Of a stretch of 64,000 bases of DNA, positions 37,900 to 44,888 are shown one piece after another. Location of the stretch: the NCBI GenBank assembly GCA_027623555.1, contig JAQBSZ010000015.1, positions 1 to 64,000 on the forward strand. Reading direction: 5' to 3'. This DNA is from Pseudomonadota bacterium (GTDB lineage Bacteria; Pseudomonadota; Gammaproteobacteria; Pseudomonadales; Pseudohongiellaceae). Position 1 is the first letter of the stretch, and every line of letters begins with the position of its first letter. The notes beneath the pieces are model-generated. The model searched no databases. It had not been told where the DNA came from and saw only the letters and a list, made by a program, of their open reading frames with translations. Position numbers and translations under genes: made by a program.

Positions 37900-38535
37900 T
37901 CAGTCATCGATCTTGCGCGAGTATTCACAGAGATCTTCGATAAGGCAGGCGCCGCATCTGGGTTTGCGAGCCAGGCAGACATAGCGGCCGTGTAGTATCA
38001 GCCAGTGGTGCGCATCGAGCAGAAACTCTTCCGGTACCAGACGCACCAAGCGCCGCTCCACCTCCAGAACATTCTTGCCCGGTGCGATGCCAGTTCGGTT
38101 AGAGACTCGAAATATATGGGTATCCACGGCCATGGCGAGCTGCCGGAACGCCGTATTCAGCACTACGTTAGCTGTCTTGCGACCGACACCCGGCAATGCC
38201 ACCAGGTCTTCACGATTATCTGGCACGCGTGAATTATGCTCCGCCACAAGTATGGTGCAGGTCTTGATGATGTTTTCAGCCTTGGTGTTGAATAGTCCGA
38301 TAGTCTTGATGTACTTCTTCAAACCATCTACGCCGAGGGCAAGAATTGCCTCGGGAGTATTCGCGACCCGGTAGAGTTTCTCGGTTGCCTTGTTAACGCT
38401 GACATCGGTTGCCTGGGCGGACAGAATCACTGAGATGAGTAATTCGAAAGTATTGGAAAATCGCAGTTCGGTGGTCGGTGCTGGATCTGCTGCACGCAGG
38501 CGCCTGAATATTTCAGTGCGTTTGTTTTTATTCAT
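37900..38535 (-). CDS. nth: endonuclease III
   Basis: A 211-residue bifunctional DNA glycosylase/AP lyase that removes oxidised pyrimidines. The helix-hairpin-helix LPGVGRKTANVVLNTAF contains the catalytic Lys, followed by VDTHIFRVSNRTG with the catalytic Asp. The C-terminal [4Fe-4S] loop C-x6-C-x2-C-x5-C (CLARKPRCGACLIEDLC) is intact. Its ATG overlaps the rnfE stop codon (ATGA), so it is translationally coupled to the Rnf cluster, an arrangement also seen in E. coli (rsx-nth). Confidence 0.96.
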   Translation of the reverse strand: MNKNKRTEIFRRLRAADPAPTTELRFSNTFELLISVILSAQATDVSVNKATEKLYRVANTPEAILALGVDGLKKYIKTIGLFNTKAENIIKTCTILVAEHNSRVPDNREDLVALPGVGRKTANVVLNTAFRQLAMAVDTHIFRVSNRTGIAPGKNVLEVERRLVRLVPEEFLLDAHHWLILHGRYVCLARKPRCGACLIEDLCEYSRKIDD

Positions 38536-39245
38536 AGCTTGCCAGTCACCCGCGCTCGCTGAACCGGTTGGATCTTCTCTGGCTCGCTGTGGTCTCCAGC
38601 CCGGCGCCCGTAATCCAGCCAGTTTTTAGCGGCGACCAGCAGACCCAGAACAATCAGGGCGCCAGGCTGCAGGGCGATATAGGTGAAGCTTTTCATTGTC
38701 TGGCTGTCAGTCCCGAGCAGGCCTGTCTCTGCACTCGATGCAGACATCAGGAGTTGCCAGTTCTCCAGCAGTGTGCCGTTGGCAAGAAGTTCTCTAAGGC
38801 CGGACAGTAGCAGTAAGGTGATTACCCATCCGAGCCCCAAGCGCAGGGCGCCGGTCAAGCTGGACAGTACCTGAGTCTCGCTGCGCTGTTTCTCCAGTTG
38901 CACGAGCAGAGCAATATTACAGGCGATCAGGGGAACATAGATACCCAGTTCCCGGTACAGCGGGAAGTATAACCATTGCATGAGGATATCGACCGCCGTG
39001 GTATAACTGGACAGAATTACCAGGTACCAGACAAAGCGCCATGTGTCATTGATATGTTGTCTGAGCAGGAAAGTAGTCAGGCTCGAGAGCATTAACACGA
39101 GCAACGTAGCAAGGCCGAGCCCGATGCCGTTCACGGCGGTGGTGGAAACTGCCAGCACCGGGCTCAGTCCGAGCATCTGTACCAGTAGCGGATTTGCTCG
39201 CCATAGGTCAGCCGCGGACAGGATGCGTTGTTCCAGTTCGCTCAT
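38532..39245 (-). CDS. rnfE: RnfE/RsxE-like membrane subunit lacking the cluster cysteines
   Basis: A 237-residue, six-helix subunit of the Rnf/Rsx electron-transport complex, aligned by its LVQMLGLSPVLAVS, NGIGLGLATLLVL and GIYVPLIACNIALL blocks. In canonical RnfE these read GLCP and TNC, the two cysteines being ligands of the intramembrane [2Fe-2S] cluster shared with RnfA. Here they are S28 and I111; one cysteine (C109) lies two residues early. The C terminus is charged and extended. It overlaps rnfD by 4 bp (ATGA) and nth likewise, leaving no space for rnfG, which normally separates rnfD and rnfE. Confidence 0.9.
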   Translation of the reverse strand: MSELEQRILSAADLWRANPLLVQMLGLSPVLAVSTTAVNGIGLGLATLLVLMLSSLTTFLLRQHINDTWRFVWYLVILSSYTTAVDILMQWLYFPLYRELGIYVPLIACNIALLVQLEKQRSETQVLSSLTGALRLGLGWVITLLLLSGLRELLANGTLLENWQLLMSASSAETGLLGTDSQTMKSFTYIALQPGALIVLGLLVAAKNWLDYGRRAGDHSEPEKIQPVQRARVTGKL

Positions 39246-40372
39246 GATCCGGGCTCGTTATTTTCTGCCGCCGCCCGCGGGAGATTTTCTGTCGTTGGCA
39301 GGGGGCGGTTTTCGCCATAGAGTCTGGGTCGGCAGAAATGATCCAGCAGCGGTGCACAAAAATTGCCAAACAGCACGGCGATGGCAATCGAATCGAGATA
39401 ACTGCCCCAGACTCGAATGGCATAGATGGATGCACCGATGATAATGCCGTATACCAGCCGACCCTTGTTAGTAGTGGCGGCACTGACCGGGTCGGTCGCG
39501 ATGAAAAATGCGCCGATCATGGTGGCGCTGCCAAACAGATGCAGGTAAGTAGTCCCGTAGATTGAAGTGCTGCCAGGCGCATAGAAGAGTATCGACAGCA
39601 CGACAATAGTTGCCAGTATGCTGACTGGAATATGCCAGTTGATGATGCGCTTGAAGAGAAGAAACAATCCCCCCAGCAGGTAGCCGAAATTGACCAGTTC
39701 CCAGCCAGTTTGTGAGCTGCGTGCAAACAGTGACAGGCCGTTCTCTTGAGCAGCGCGCAGTGCGTTGGGGCCTGCCATCTTGAACTCAATCAGCGGTGTG
39801 GCCATAGCTAAACCGTCGACAGTGGCCTGAATGCCAGAAGGATCACTCGTCAGGAATGGGAATGTCAGCAGCAGCGCTTGCAGAAAGCCCTGCCAAGCTA
39901 TCGGTGAGAAGGAACTACCTGCCACGATGGCATCGTTGGGAATATGCCAACTCGTCATCTCCAGCGGAAAAGTCAATAACAGGAACAGGTAACCGCACAT
40001 GGCCGGGTTAAAGGCATTCTGGCCCAATCCACCAAAGGCGTGCTTGCCGATCACAATCGCGAAGGCAATGCCCATCAACAGCAGCGACCACTGGGAGCCG
40101 GGTGGTATGGCAATGCCAAATAATACAGCGGTGACCAGGGCGCTGTTATCCGCCAGATAGAGTCGTGGTTCTCGTCCACGAATTTTCACCAGGCAGGCCT
40201 CCAGAACAAGCGCTGCGATCACCGCCAGAGAAATATTGATGAGAATTCCGTAGCCGAAAAACCAGGTGCCGATAAGAACGCCAGGCAGGCAGGCGGCCAC
40301 TACCAGCAGCATGATGCGGTTGGTATCCAGGGAACCGTGCTGCATCGGCGAGCTAGTGACGATCCTGCCCAT
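39242..40372 (-). CDS. rnfD: Rnf complex membrane subunit RnfD
   Basis: A 376-residue polytopic subunit related to NqrB. A flavinylation-type motif is present as DGLAMATPL (186-194), with T192 the expected covalent FMN acceptor at the position known in E. coli-type RnfD, although the residue two before it is Met-Ala rather than the common Gly-Ala pattern. Helices bear GKHAFGGLGQNAFNPAMCGYL and ATMIGAFFIATDPVSAATTNKGR, both characteristic. It begins directly after the rnfC stop codon. ApbE, which would attach the FMN, is not in the window. Confidence 0.93.
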   Translation of the reverse strand: MGRIVTSSPMQHGSLDTNRIMLLVVAACLPGVLIGTWFFGYGILINISLAVIAALVLEACLVKIRGREPRLYLADNSALVTAVLFGIAIPPGSQWSLLLMGIAFAIVIGKHAFGGLGQNAFNPAMCGYLFLLLTFPLEMTSWHIPNDAIVAGSSFSPIAWQGFLQALLLTFPFLTSDPSGIQATVDGLAMATPLIEFKMAGPNALRAAQENGLSLFARSSQTGWELVNFGYLLGGLFLLFKRIINWHIPVSILATIVVLSILFYAPGSTSIYGTTYLHLFGSATMIGAFFIATDPVSAATTNKGRLVYGIIIGASIYAIRVWGSYLDSIAIAVLFGNFCAPLLDHFCRPRLYGENRPLPTTENLPRAAAENNEPGS

Positions 40373-41986
40373 CTAGTGTCTATCCTTATCTTTGGCCTTA
40401 TCTTTGGCACTGGATGGTGCAGTTCGATTCGAGTGGCGCGCAGCTACCCGGCGCACGGCGGCGGCAATTTCATCCCGTGCCTGATCCCTTGAGAATGGTT
40501 GAGCGGGCTCATTCGCCGTGGTTTTTTCAGCGCCTGGAAGTTTCTTATCCAACGCCTTCGTGGTCTCTTTCTTCAGGCGGTATTGATGAAATTGAAAGCG
40601 GGACTGCCATTGCTTGCTCGTTTGAAATTGTCGATCCCGTTCGGCGATGGCCTGCTTGCTGGCACGGTAATACTGCACCAGGGGAATGTGGCTGGGGCAG
40701 ACATAGGCACAGGCGCCACATTCGATGCAGTCAGCCAAGCCATGTTCTTCCAGTTGATCGAGGTCCTCACTCCGGGAAAAAGCGTAGAGCTGCTGCGGGA
40801 GCAATCGTGCCGGGCAGACGTCAGCGCAGTAACCACAGCGGATACAAGCCTGCTCCGGTGCTGGATCCGGAAACTCTCCAGTCGATTTGGCAAGCAGACA
40901 ATTAGTCGTCTTGATCAGCGGTACCTCGTCGCTGTCTAATTCAATGCCCATCAGTGAGCCGCCCATAATCGTTCCAGTGTGCTGACTTTTATCAATACCG
41001 CACATCTCAAAAAGGAAAGAGACAGGTGTCCCAATTAGGGCTTCAAAATTTTTGGGAGTCTGCAGTGGGCTGCCAGTTAATGTAGTAATGCGGCTGATGC
41101 AGGGCTTGCCTTCGACAATGGCATTGTGAACTGCATAAGCGGTACCTGCATTCTGCACCAGGATGCCTGCATCAACGGGCAGTAATCCACGTGGCACTTC
41201 AAAGCCGGTAACTGCTTGAATGATTTGTCTCTCACCGCCGGTTGGGAATTTACTGTTCAGGACGAGTAACTCAATAGAGCTGTCTTGCAGTGCCGTGCTT
41301 AGCGCCTCTATGGCATCGGCTTTGTCTTTTTCGATGGCGATGACACAGCGCTTTGCCAGACAGACCGATTGCAGAATCTCCGCACCACTCACAACTCGGT
41401 CTGCACGTTCCCTGATTAAGGATTCGTCAGCGCTTATGTACGGCTCGCATTCCGCCGCATTGATAATGAGAAGTTCGACTCCCTGTTCGATGCTCACCCG
41501 AAGTTTCTCGGCGGTTGGGAAACCGGCTCCTCCCAGACCGCAGATTCCTGCCGCGTCGATCAACGCCAGCAATTGCAGGTGACTTAAAGCGCGATAGTCC
41601 AGGCACGGCTGCAACTCTGCCGCCGTGTCCAAACCATCGGCCTGGAGATGAATACAGCGCTGTACTTGCGCGCCAAATCCTGGCACTGCGGAATCGGCAA
41701 TGGCAGTGATAACGCCGGATGTTGGAGCGTGAACAGGAACGCTCAGGGGCCCATTCCCCATCGCCAATACCTGGTACTTCAGAACCGCCTGGCCTACTTC
41801 AACAACTGCCATGGCGGGCTGGCCCTGGTGCTGCAGCAATGGCAACACCAGGTTACCGGGAAGGGGTGCCGGCATTACCCGAGAGCGCAGCGCATCCGCT
41901 TTATAGACGGCTGGTTTGATACCACCGAAGATTTTATGCGCGCGTAGCCTCGCGGTGAAACTCTTGTGGTGAGGGGATTGACTCAT
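40373..41986 (-). CDS. rnfC: Rnf complex NADH-oxidising subunit RnfC
   Basis: A 537-residue peripheral subunit that takes electrons from NADH through FMN and two [4Fe-4S] clusters. It shows the N-terminal [11 protein letters not shown], the flavin/NADH region [16 protein letters not shown] and NAAECEPYI, and two ferredoxin motifs [12 protein letters not shown] and [12 protein letters not shown], all intact. The C-terminal ~100 residues are Lys/Ala/Glu-rich and ordinary for the family. The start at 41986 is set by a 4-bp ATGA overlap with rnfB; a longer reading would run into rnfB by 96 bases. Confidence 0.94.
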
Positions 41987-42576
41987 ACGGCAGTATCTAG
42001 TTGTTGGCGCACGCCAACCCCGCTGCTTGGCAGTAACCAGATGACCGGGTTGCCCCACGCGCGGCTGATCATGTCGATGCAATCAACCGGACAGGGCTCG
42101 ACACAGAGATCACAGCCCGTGCATTCCTGTTCGATTACAGTGTGCATGAGTTTCGGACCCCCGATGATGGCATCTACCGGGCAGGCCTGGATGCACTTGG
42201 TGCAACCGATACACTCTGCTTCGCGAATGACGGCGACAGCGAACGGCTTGACCTGCCCGTGAGCGGGATTCAATGGCTCTACCGGCCTATGCATTAATGC
42301 GGCAAGTCGGACGATGGTTTCCGGGCCACCGGGAGGGCATTTGTTAATGGCATCACCGCGACAAATTTCCCGGGCATAGGGCAGACAGCCCTCATAGCCA
42401 CACTGACCGCATTGGGTCTGGGGTAACAGCCGATTAATCCGCTCCAGTAACGAGCGCTGCAACAAGCGTTGCCGTAGCAACGCTTGCCAGATTTTCAAGC
42501 CCAGGTGGGCAGCGAGCAGCAGGACCAGGCTCCCTGAGATGACCTGGACGTAAATAGTGTCTATCAGCGGGTACAT
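41983..42576 (-). CDS. rnfB: Rnf complex ferredoxin subunit RnfB
   Basis: A 197-residue membrane-anchored iron-sulfur protein: N-terminal helix (about 8-27), a Fe-S domain with CGQCGYEGC plus a downstream Cys (four-cysteine cluster), then two [4Fe-4S] ferredoxin motifs [12 protein letters not shown] and [15 protein letters not shown]. All expected ligands are present. The start ATG at 42576 comes 2 bp after the rnfA stop codon. An earlier in-frame start overlapping rnfA would add eleven residues. Confidence 0.94.
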
Positions 42577-42578
42577 AG

Positions 42579-43241
42579 TCAGACCAGACCTGCAAACCCA
42601 AGCAGGCACATGGCGACTATGCCGGCACTGATTAGGTTGATCGGGAAGCCGCGAAAGGCGGCGGGACTATCGGCAGTCTCCAGGCGTTGCCGCAGCGCGG
42701 CGAATCCTATCAGGACGAAGGCGAAGCCTGTCGCGGCGCCAAGACTATAGGCAAATGATTCAATGATGCTCGATGTGCTGACGCTATTCAGCAGCGCCAC
42801 TCCAAGCACAGCACTATTGCCACCCACCAGTGCAAAGGCGAGGCGGTGACGTTGCATCGAGAGTGGGTAGTGGCGCTCGATTATCAGGGCAAGCCAGGTA
42901 CTAAGACCCGAGCTTATAGTTACAAATACAACGAGTTTCAGGACCTCCAGCCCGAGCGGGTGCAGCACCCATCGGTAGAGTAACAGGTTTGTGAATGAAG
43001 CGGCCAGCAACACGAAGAAGCTGAGCATTACCAGTTCGAGCGCGCTCTGCAACCGATTGCTGTAAGCAAATAATGACGAGACGCCGAGAAACTGCACCAG
43101 GATGACATTGTTAACGAGCGCGGCGGCGACAATGATGCTTAGCAAATTAGACAAGGAGGGTATTGTCTCCGGGCTTGGGATTAATTCGTTGCCGGAGATT
43201 TTAGCACGGTTGCGCCAGGCAAAAACTGCGGCGCAACCCAT
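42579..43241 (-). CDS. rnfA: RnfA/RsxA-like membrane subunit lacking the cluster cysteines
   Basis: A 220-residue subunit whose family similarity starts around residue 31 ([24 protein letters not shown]). Canonical RnfA has FLGLCPF and [12 protein letters not shown]; here they are FLGVSSLF (S55 for Cys) and [12 protein letters not shown] (S143 for Cys). Both [2Fe-2S] ligand positions are therefore serine, while the surrounding helices are well kept. The N-terminal 30 residues are not conserved, and the annotated ATG lies inside a 9-bp inverted repeat region, so the true start may be further in (TTG at 43154 or a non-AUG codon). First gene of the rnf operon. Confidence 0.88.
43208..43238 (-). 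promoter_or_regulatory. 9-bp inverted repeat at the rnfA 5' end
   Basis: GGTTGCGCC (43208-43216) and GGCGCAACC (43230-43238) form a perfect 9-bp stem with a 13-nt loop. It lies between the protease stop codon and the conserved part of rnfA, overlapping the possible rnfA start. It may end the protease transcript or act in the rnfA leader; there is no T-tract. Confidence 0.45.
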
Positions 43242-43278: not shown

Positions 43279-44796
43279 TCAGTCGTCGAACAGGCCGATG
43301 GAGTAGGCTGAGGGTATGCGGTACTGACTCAGGATTTGCGATTCGCTGTTCAGTGCCGACTCATGATTGATCACCATCTGGTAACCATTAGTGTTTTTGA
43401 AGACTATATTGTCTGCTGTGTTGTTTTTGATGAGCGCGGAGAATTGGCTGAAGTCGCGCACTGGTTCACCGTTAACCGTATCCACTACCCAGTTGCGCCA
43501 GTCGTGATAGCCCAGATTTACATCGGAGGCCAACACCTGCAGTGCGACTACCAATTGACGTCGTTCCGGCGAACTCCATTCATTGCGAGCCTGCAATAGA
43601 CTCACCGGTGCTGTGCGCCCCCAGTCATTACCCCATCTCTTTATTAGATTCATATTCAGTGGCACGAACAGAATGCCACCGTAAATGTAATATTCCGGAA
43701 CCTTGTCGAATTGCTCACCGGCCACCAGGCTATAACTCTGCAGAGAACGCCTGGCGATCATCTGGGTGGTGGCTCGTTCCCCATGGCGGGAATAGGTAAT
43801 CGAGATGGGTTCGTCGATATGATGAAGATCGATCGCATGCTTGTAATCGGTGAGCAGATCATCCGAGAGCCTGATGGTTCCATCATCGGCGATCTTGAAG
43901 TTGTCGATCTGCAGAATGACATCATTTTCCTGCAGGATGCCGTCAGCCGGAGAGCCTTCGAAGACCTTTATAACCAGCACGCCGTCCTCATCTCTCTCCA
44001 GACCATAGGCGGCTTTGGCGGAGGGGCTGTCCAGGGTTTGGGTCCTGAATCCCAGTTCGGGGAACCCGTCATGTGTAGCATCTTTACTGTCGGTCAGCAC
44101 GTGACGGATGATGCTGGGGGGGACGAAGTACCCCAGGTTTTCGGCGCGACCCCCGCTATTGGCCTGCATGACCACGCCGACAATCTGCTGATTTACGATT
44201 ACCGGGCCACCGCTGTTACCGGGATTTATCGCGGCATCAATTTGACCAGCTAACAGGTAGGTGCCGGCATGGGCGTAGACCTGTTGTTCAACACGGGAAA
44301 GAATGCCCTTGGTAATACTGAGCGATTTGCCACCGATGGGGTATCCATAGACTGAGACTTCCTGTAAGGGATCGGGCAGGTCACCGATGGCGAGTGCTTT
44401 CAGATCGCTGAAGAATCCAGGCTCGTCTACCGTGATCAGCGCGAGATCGGCTTCGTGAGAGATGAATGAAACTCGCGCCTGGTAGCGCCGGGGATCATTG
44501 TGTTTCTGGGCCTGCACATAGCTGGCATCGGCAACCACGTGAGCGTTGGTAAGTATCTGATTACCTGAGATGACCGCTCCGGAGCCGCTGCTTTGGCGAG
44601 GAGTCAGTAGACGCCATGGAGTAAAGTAGTCCGGCTCAGCCTGGGTGGTATAAATCTTGACAACCGAGTTCTGGATTTCGCGGATTTCATCGACCTGCCC
44701 AACTAGCTGAGTCGAGGAAGATAGCAGTAGAAATATGAGACTCACCAGGAAAAGGTTCTTCGAGTTTTGCGCGCTAACACTTTTGCTATTGTGCAT
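43279..44796 (-). CDS. exported trypsin-like serine protease with PDZ domain(s) (Deg/HtrA-like)
   Basis: A 505-residue protein with an N-terminal signal/anchor segment (about 14-33). The trypsin-like domain carries H86 (TNAHVV), D117 (EADLALI) and S195 (NPGNSGGPV), a complete catalytic triad. A PDZ-like domain (about 235-350, GVLVIKVFEGSPADGILQENDVILQI) and a long C-terminal part with a second PDZ-like region (NWVVDTVNGEPVRDF) follow, as in plant/organellar Deg-type proteases rather than DegP. I chose ATG 44796, just before the signal segment; an in-frame start 26 codons earlier is possible. Lies upstream of and co-directional with rnfA. Confidence 0.88.
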   Translation of the reverse strand: MHNSKSVSAQNSKNLFLVSLIFLLLSSSTQLVGQVDEIREIQNSVVKIYTTQAEPDYFTPWRLLTPRQSSGSGAVISGNQILTNAHVVADASYVQAQKHNDPRRYQARVSFISHEADLALITVDEPGFFSDLKALAIGDLPDPLQEVSVYGYPIGGKSLSITKGILSRVEQQVYAHAGTYLLAGQIDAAINPGNSGGPVIVNQQIVGVVMQANSGGRAENLGYFVPPSIIRHVLTDSKDATHDGFPELGFRTQTLDSPSAKAAYGLERDEDGVLVIKVFEGSPADGILQENDVILQIDNFKIADDGTIRLSDDLLTDYKHAIDLHHIDEPISITYSRHGERATTQMIARRSLQSYSLVAGEQFDKVPEYYIYGGILFVPLNMNLIKRWGNDWGRTAPVSLLQARNEWSSPERRQLVVALQVLASDVNLGYHDWRNWVVDTVNGEPVRDFSQFSALIKNNTADNIVFKNTNGYQMVINHESALNSESQILSQYRIPSAYSIGLFDD

Positions 44797-44888
44797 TACT
44801 GAAGATCTCACTGATTGCTGAATTAACTTTGGAACGACTGGACTCCGGGCCTGCCTGATTGAGGCTTGCAACAAGCTTATTACTTTCG

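Follow-up and report, generated by a model that had tools for sequence, protein, structure and literature searches.

The closest described relatives of the locus analysed here are the RnfABCDGE complexes, known as RsxABCDGE in Escherichia coli (structures 9eri, 7zc6 and 8ahx solved; E. coli Rsx), and the Na+-translocating NADH:quinone oxidoreductase (Na+-NQR), with which it has a membrane core in common (homologues of NqrB, NqrD, NqrE and NqrC). In a review the [2Fe-2S] cluster of the RnfA/RnfE type is listed for all four RNF/NQR complexes tabulated and forms the step between RnfB and RnfG, and the membrane cofactors are called strictly conserved between the two complexes compared (PMC12174285). 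Na+ pumping is proposed to be triggered when this cluster is reduced, and removal of its ligands (cluster AE1) in Acetobacterium woodii abolished ferredoxin:NAD activity and autotrophic growth and led to the loss of two Fe per complex (PMC11889175); similarly, the variant NqrD-C29A is without the cluster (PMC10643135). In this work we describe an rnfABCDE operon in a 64-kb stretch of DNA (64,000 nucleotides, hereafter the window) from a Pseudomonadota bacterium, in which RnfA and RnfE have none of the four cysteine ligands of this cluster.

By gene order (A, B, C, D, (G), E, nth) the operon is that of E. coli minus rnfG, all subunits are homologous to those of Rnf/Rsx, and the cluster cysteines of RnfB and RnfC as well as the threonine of RnfD that accepts flavin mononucleotide (FMN) and the riboflavin-site residues are shared; judged by homology, the proteins are clearly Rnf subunits. 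The locus differs from Rnf/Rsx in that the RnfA/RnfE ligands are missing from the window, rnfG is extra-operonic and remodelled, and rnfA, rnfE and rnfG score below the model cut-offs (RsxE by 0.1 bit). From Na+-NQR it differs in that the NqrE and NqrD models score far under their cut-offs, RnfB and RnfC replace NqrF and NqrA, and the four cluster cysteines of NqrD/NqrE are absent. Coordinates, the order rnfA-B-C-D-E-nth, the minus strand and the 4-bp overlap (ATGA) of rnfD and rnfE were found as given in a preliminary description of this DNA.

At the four ligand positions (0/4 Cys) the window has S55 and S143 in RnfA and S28 and I111 in RnfE. Alignment placed these residues, which the preliminary description had named correctly together with C109 of RnfE, opposite C26/C114 of E. 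coli RsxA and C26/C109 of RsxE, and opposite C25/C113 of chain 9eri_A and C25/C108 of chain 9eri_E. The ligands in A. woodii are numbered C25/C113 and C25/C108 (PMC11889175) and, since this residue numbering fits, we infer that 9eri is the A. woodii complex and chain 9eri_G its RnfG. That the ligand cysteines are kept at shifted positions, a possibility raised in the preliminary description, was ruled out by the alignment and by the inventory of the remaining cysteines: the sole cysteine of RnfE is C109, two residues before I111, and RnfA has C212, plus C3 in an N-terminal stretch that is probably untranslated. The ATG-started open reading frame (ORF) of RnfA, 220 amino acids long, is probably 29 residues too long, because the ORFs of two named relatives begin at the equivalent of residue 30; the true start is probably near 43154 or 43145 (TTG), the relatives starting at the equivalent of a TTG at 43154. 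AlphaFold2 predicted both RnfA and RnfE poorly (mean predicted local distance difference test scores of 53.6 and 49.1), and the models were not used. On the aligned residues, the [2Fe-2S] cluster of RnfA/RnfE is not buildable in its known form. RnfA, RnfE and RnfG of the window genome also fall under their NCBIfam cut-offs and RnfB, RnfC and RnfD exceed theirs. However, failing a cut-off proves little by itself, and a Cys-bearing Rnf of another genome, G045, is likewise slightly under (rnfA 227.8 of 229.3, rnfG 96.9 of 102).

Features of the rnf locus in the window, with scores against NCBIfam models (cut-off in brackets)
Gene	Position	Strand	Features	Score in bits
HtrA/DegP-like serine protease gene	43279-44874	minus	flanks the locus upstream in most relatives read	top match degP_htrA_DO 120 (416), under
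rnfA	42579-43241	minus	without cluster cysteines: S55, S143 at E. coli RsxA C26/C114	rnfA 132 (229), under
rnfB	41983-42609	minus	iron-sulfur cysteines complete	rnfB 224 (68.7), over
rnfC	40373-42082	minus	NADH/FMN domain, two [4Fe-4S] motifs, C-terminal tail; ORF long and TTG-started, real start probably later	rnfC 510 (246), over
rnfD	39242-40372	minus	FMN-accepting Thr (ATPL) and riboflavin-site Asn/Asp present	rnfD 351 (207), over
rnfE	38532-39245	minus	without cluster cysteines (S28, I111); new Cys C109	rnfE 156 (213), under; RsxE 183.9 (184), under
nth (endonuclease III)	37900-38535	minus	flanks the locus downstream, as in E. coli	

The genus, as defined by the tool used, comprised 84 genomes, most of them drafts in several of which the operon ends are cut. 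Both ligand positions of RnfA were readable in 40 genomes, with Ser/Ser in 39 and Ser/Gly in one, and both positions of RnfE in 35, with Ser at the first position throughout and Val, Phe, Ile, Met or Leu at the second; all four positions were readable in 33. Among the 47 genomes for which RnfA, RnfE or both gave a row, in some cases a partial one, none shows a ligand cysteine, and the eroded operon of G117, which was counted apart, has Pro and Ser at the RnfA positions. Among 40 genomes from other families of the order that gave a match, 20 were fetched, and all 20 have the four cysteines and an rnfG between rnfD and rnfE. When a profile of the genus RnfA was run against a 369-genome sample of the class, the window scored 300 bits and any other genome at most 187; in the best 29 of the 230 matching genomes the RnfA cysteine pair was found, in 28 by pattern and in one by eye. 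With the identical state in 40 RnfAs, a sequencing or assembly artefact was rejected. The loss that the preliminary description had read in one operon thus recurs in 40 RnfAs and 35 RnfEs of the genus, and on these alignments absence of the ligand cysteines is a trait of the clade. Among the titles and abstract openings of the open-access literature screened, no title concerned a cluster-less RnfA/RnfE or an rnfG beside nuoN.

In the window genome itself (draft assembly of 4.5 Mb in 95 contigs, with a completeness of 97.5%), only two PF02508 proteins were detected, both encoded in the window and both best fitted by Rnf/Rsx models, and a second canonical rnf or nqr was rejected on these two matches; NqrF and NqrA were not searched by name. 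Of a canonical RnfA/RnfE pair plus rnfG elsewhere in the genome, which the preliminary description had considered as a counter-case, only the rnfG was found.

The statement that the complex is without RnfG holds for the operon and fails for the genome, for there is no rnfG between rnfD and rnfE in the window and a relative of RnfG is encoded on another contig, directly after nuoN (G000:C4:90023-90655, minus; L004:1453-2088). It scored 88 bits of 178 with the RsxG model and 78.5 of 102 with the rnfG model, and is one of four FMN_bind matches in the window genome. Three further rnfG candidates were set aside: C62 is a 671-amino-acid protein exceeding the FMN domain, C83 (200 amino acids) matched the NosR and rnfG models both at about 42 bits, and C46 (188 amino acids) matched weakly. 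In the genus, rnfG was found in 31 genomes including that of the window (the match in G064 begins at residue 74), and it follows nuoN in 30 of them, the contig of G066 beginning within the gene. Downstream comes gpsA, in many cases after an intervening methyltransferase gene. The names of the nuo, sthA, gpsA and methyltransferase genes were assigned by eye and from the E. coli order. The window genome has a complete nuoA-N, with apbE and sthA upstream of nuoA, and contains two ApbE genes. Replacement of the NADH module of complex I by Rnf was rejected, nuoA-N being all present. A single neighbourhood (G000:C4:90020-108547; L040, L041) contains apbE, sthA (by eye), nuoA-N, rnfG and gpsA, and in G072 (L158) an nqr-like set lies directly upstream of apbE.

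The flavin side of the relocated RnfG is altered as well, a change that lay beyond what the preliminary description could see. Ser182 of RnfG aligns, via chain 9eri_G, with T185, the FMN-bearing residue of A. woodii RnfG (PMC11889175), and this acceptor position is Ser in 30/30 genus rows compared with Thr in 21/21 canonical rows. In the window the flavinylation motif reads DQFVGAS, to be compared with D-x-x-[S/T]-G-A-[S/T], in which Ser is usable for flavinylation and Thr is preferred (PMC12052999). The stretch around ETPGLGD is disrupted, and the tyrosine equivalent to Y113 is Phe in 30/30. RnfD and RnfG, the two flavinylated subunits, have each exchanged residue [S/T] at the fourth motif position (Ala in the window RnfD, Val in the genus RnfG), hinting at an altered ApbE preference.

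In order to compare the subunits, an invariant residue set was derived from 21 canonical rows, and genus rows shorter than 75% of the window protein were left out. Of these invariant residues the genus rows keep, as medians, 0.47 in RnfA, 0.56 in RnfE and 0.44 in RnfG, and 0.93 in RnfB, 0.89 in RnfC and 0.90 in RnfD; the canonical leave-one-out medians are 0.98-1.00, with 0.75 (RnfE) as the lowest single row. The claim of the preliminary description that RnfB, RnfC and RnfD have intact cofactor residues extends to the genus: all 13 aligned cysteines of RnfB are present wherever the column is filled, also in the window, the eight cluster cysteines of RnfC in 41/41 filled rows, and, with the window included, the FMN-accepting Thr of RnfD in 37/37, the riboflavin-site Asn in 36/37 and the Asp in 35/37. 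Other residues are near-invariant in a derived state (E. coli numbering; G016 and G007 also left out), namely G40E (38/39) and I81S (37/39) in RnfA, and F101Y (35/35) and T107C (33/35) in RnfE. Of residues on the Na+ path proposed for A. woodii, the equivalent of RnfA E88 is Leu, Ile, Met, Ala, Gly or Val in 37/40 (the other three were not printed) and that of T110 is Gly in 24, Ser in 10, Ala in five and Cys in one (40/40); in A. woodii, RnfA T110G did not permit autotrophic growth and T111G had no phenotype at 20 mM NaCl (PMC11889175). The RnfE residues equivalent to L103 (35/35) and R67 (30/35) are kept, and that of E115 is Glu or Asp in 28/35.

Pairwise ratios of nonsynonymous to synonymous substitution rates (dN/dS) are rough values because dS exceeds 1 in several pairs, and some pairs gave no value. 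For RnfA, comparable in 15 of 17 pairs, the ratio was 0.07-0.18 in 13 of the 15 and about 0.4 in G014/G006 and G049/G050; RnfE values reached 0.40 (about 0.4 in G065/G071 and G014/G006), and RnfB gave 0.44 in G045/G066. Because change is confined mostly to RnfA, RnfE and RnfG, the cofactor residues of RnfB, RnfC and RnfD are kept and dN/dS is mostly low, the RnfB-AE-RnfG leg would be rewired and not decaying, and, overall, selected remodelling appears more likely than decay. The re-wired complex under selection that the preliminary description had proposed is therefore borne out by 40/40 RnfAs without ligand cysteine and by the low RnfA ratios, and, at the level of sequence, the lineage has a form of Rnf without the RnfA/RnfE cluster that is under selection.

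The position of the locus is between the HtrA-like protease gene and nth, and at this position the sister genomes differ. Sorted by the author's reading, 40 of the 84 genomes have rnfABCDE, whole or cut short by a contig end, six a reduced four-gene locus, six a lone RnfB, 10 an RnfB-type ferredoxin domain only, seven nothing or a remnant, six a partial or odd locus, and nine were unreadable. The four-gene locus (G123, G024, G027, G060, G043, G048; L216:4366-7503, L227, L270-L273) consists of a membrane gene, rnfB, a short rnfC encoding only the two [4Fe-4S] motifs and the tail, and a second membrane gene. For G123, Pfam gave no hit to the first of these membrane genes at E up to 0.1 and sub-threshold hits only to the second; in profile comparisons, whose E-values refer to a single comparison of few sequences, the first resembled RnfA (probability 88.5, E 2.7e-6), and the second resembled RnfE in its C-terminal part (probability 89.8, E 1.8e-6) and, weakly, RnfD in its middle (probability 20.8, E 0.0011). 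In G069 (L265:3263-4318, minus; G069:C173), RnfB is fused to the ferredoxin part and tail of RnfC and the NADH/FMN domain is gone; genes for an RnfD with the Thr and an RnfE without ligand cysteines come after the fusion gene, and the RnfA, encoded on another contig, is likewise without ligand cysteines. An RnfC-like tail motif (author-made, modelled on the RnfC tail) is present in 15/16 lone RnfB-type proteins. These resemble the lone RsxB-type ferredoxins of PRK06991 and PRK08764, with the same RnfB ferredoxin, and the lone copies adjoin nth in sister genomes, whereas the window RnfB is still within a five-gene operon. PRK06991 of NCBIfam is a family of long RsxB-type proteins, and the alignment of its model with the L274 protein runs on through the tail. 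Among small RnfB-type ferredoxins beside nth (L214, L215, L218, L219, L224, L225, L280-L283), the tail motif was seen in 9/10.

In a quick tree built from GpsA, NuoN and Nth, 38/38 scored rnfABCDE genomes fell within one supported 54-row set, which also includes the lone RnfB of G026 but neither the four reduced loci in the tree nor the ferredoxin-only group; as the tree is rooted at the midpoint, it does not prove in which order the events took place. For 63 scored genomes (eight of the 71 tree rows were unscored), rnf and rnfG states were assigned by hand, with remnants, reduced four-gene loci and lone RnfBs taken as no rnf and G041 taken as rnf on a partial rnfE: 31 have both, 25 neither, seven only rnf and none only rnfG. 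In G065, G049 and G119, rnfG is missing, truncated or degenerate. Because rnfG never occurs without rnf in the scored set and rnf sometimes occurs without rnfG, RnfG seems to belong to the complex yet to be dispensable.

Taken together, the distribution of kept and altered parts suggests that the complex now serves another function. We tentatively favour, at less than even confidence, a natural and long-lived uncoupled Rnf in which electrons no longer cross the membrane through RnfA/RnfE, whose RnfG has moved to the complex I operon, and in which cytoplasmic reduction of RnfB is kept; sister lineages would take the conversion to its end by dropping the NADH domain of RnfC, fusing RnfB to the ferredoxin part of RnfC and at last retaining the ferredoxin alone. 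It is unlikely that the RnfB-AE-RnfG leg works as known; electrons would no longer run via this leg of the U-shaped path, and with no electrons in the leg the coupled ferredoxin:NAD pump would not be running in its known form. RnfA/RnfE may be left as a membrane scaffold or an uncoupled conduit. The putative route would lead from NADH to RnfC (FMN, [4Fe-4S] clusters), on to RnfB and to a cytoplasmic acceptor, with reduced RnfB on the cytoplasmic side as the useful product. From the shortened sister loci, the RnfB ferredoxin appears to be the most widely kept part, accompanied by the ferredoxin part or tail of RnfC. Because both are kept most widely, even fused, RnfB may be the product that matters and RnfC able to serve it. 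As a whole, an output in the form of RnfB, supplied by RnfC at the cytoplasmic face of the membrane, is the best explanation that we can offer, one that we regard as possible more than as probable. The preliminary description had allowed for electrons passing only to a cytoplasmic acceptor; this option would fit the shortened sister loci best.

Several observations weigh against this proposal. RnfD has retained its flavin residues, an argument for a functional RnfC-RnfD arm, and RnfG is under purifying selection where present (dN/dS 0.05-0.14 in pairs with a value); a route purely from RnfC to RnfB needs neither. The lowest genus rows keep just 0.63 (RnfC) and 0.59 (RnfD) of the invariant residues, and the link between rnf and rnfG is not significant after kinship is considered (four independent pairs, p 0.125). 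The lone RnfBs need not be remnants: because PRK06991 already covers long RsxB-type proteins, the tail fusion may predate the clade and have nothing to do with cluster loss, which weakens the argument drawn from it. Several genomes have lost rnf wholly or hold remnants. NADH without ion coupling reduces only acceptors of similar or higher potential. SoxR is the acceptor in E. coli; however, it was over the cut-off in just 6/84 genomes and not in that of the window, and reduction of SoxR as the shared job was rejected.

The RnfC-RnfD arm could instead serve an outward flow, from NADH via RnfC and RnfD (riboflavin, FMN) to RnfG (FMN on Ser182) and a periplasmic or quinone acceptor, RnfB and RnfA/RnfE being bypassed or structural. 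Such a one-legged Rnf would account for the kept cofactor residues of RnfC and RnfD and for an RnfG that 31 genomes encode, whose dN/dS is low in the pairs measured and whose gene, in the window genome, lies after the nuo genes with apbE slightly upstream of them; ApbE is able to flavinylate Ser (PMC12052999), two ApbE genes are present, and single-path NQR/RNF-like systems have been proposed (PMC8238504). Yet seven scored genomes, including the single-contig G025, have rnf without an intact rnfG, the motif DQFVGAS is off-consensus, the ETPGLG stretch is broken, and it is RnfB that is the most widely kept part in the sister genomes, and we consider an outward flow unlikely. Rather improbable, in our estimation, is a relay kept at the old site by another cofactor, be it a [2Fe-2S] cluster or single iron on three serines and the new RnfE cysteine or some other metal or cofactor, through which the U-shaped path still runs. 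This reading is supported in that three of the four cysteines became Ser nearly without exception (RnfA 40/40 and 39/40, RnfE 35/35), and it would fit the near-invariant new cysteine (33/35), the Asn kept next to each second ligand position (37/40 and 35/35) and the intact RnfB and RnfD ends. However, the fourth ligand position is hydrophobic (Phe, Val, Ile, Met or Leu) in 35/35, the new cysteine is replaced by Ala in G011 and by Ser in G054, which has Gly at the second RnfA position, a single Cys-to-Ala exchange in NqrD removes the cluster (PMC10643135), and RnfG, the next carrier, is remodelled too.

A loss of all redox use, with the genes lingering as a decaying, merely structural or ion-leak remnant, is the least probable of the explanations weighed. 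It would be in line with an rnf that is absent, a remnant or shortened in many genus genomes, with the eroded operons of G007, G016, G046, G047 and G117, with the three defective or missing rnfG genes, with the altered part of the proposed A. woodii Na+ path (E88- and T110-equivalents of RnfA) and with the single RnfA, RnfE and RnfB pairs whose dN/dS is near 0.4. The low ratios of 13/15 RnfA pairs, the near-invariance of derived residues such as G40E and I81S, and the persistence of the L103- and R67-equivalents of RnfE speak against it.

The system shares with the NQR/RNF-like single-path flavinylated systems the idea of half of a two-leg circuit. The latter, however, are NqrB/RnfD proteins fused to an NqrF-type NAD-binding domain (PMC8238504), whereas the Rnf subunits of the window are encoded by separate genes and its RnfD matches PF03116 only, without fusion to such a domain (PF00175). 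Since selection has kept the complex in this clade after removal of the cluster ligands, nature has here performed an experiment that bears on which components link the flow of electrons to the movement of ions, and the clade makes it testable whether RnfA/RnfE have any function without the cluster and whether RnfB can receive electrons from RnfC on the cytoplasmic side. Annotation of Rnf as present from RnfB or RnfC models would credit these genomes with a pump that they probably lack.

In three genus genomes a second, Cys-bearing locus of the rnfCDGEA type was observed (L260, G045:C52; L261, G041:C71; L262, G066:C193). Its RnfA-like proteins had been candidates for NqrE, which was rejected as they are part of this second Rnf. 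G045 and G066 carry the cluster-less operon alongside this second Rnf, in which the cysteines, ETPGLG and TGAT are seen in RnfA, RnfE and RnfG; in G041 the second Rnf is present and the first, cluster-less one was read only partly.

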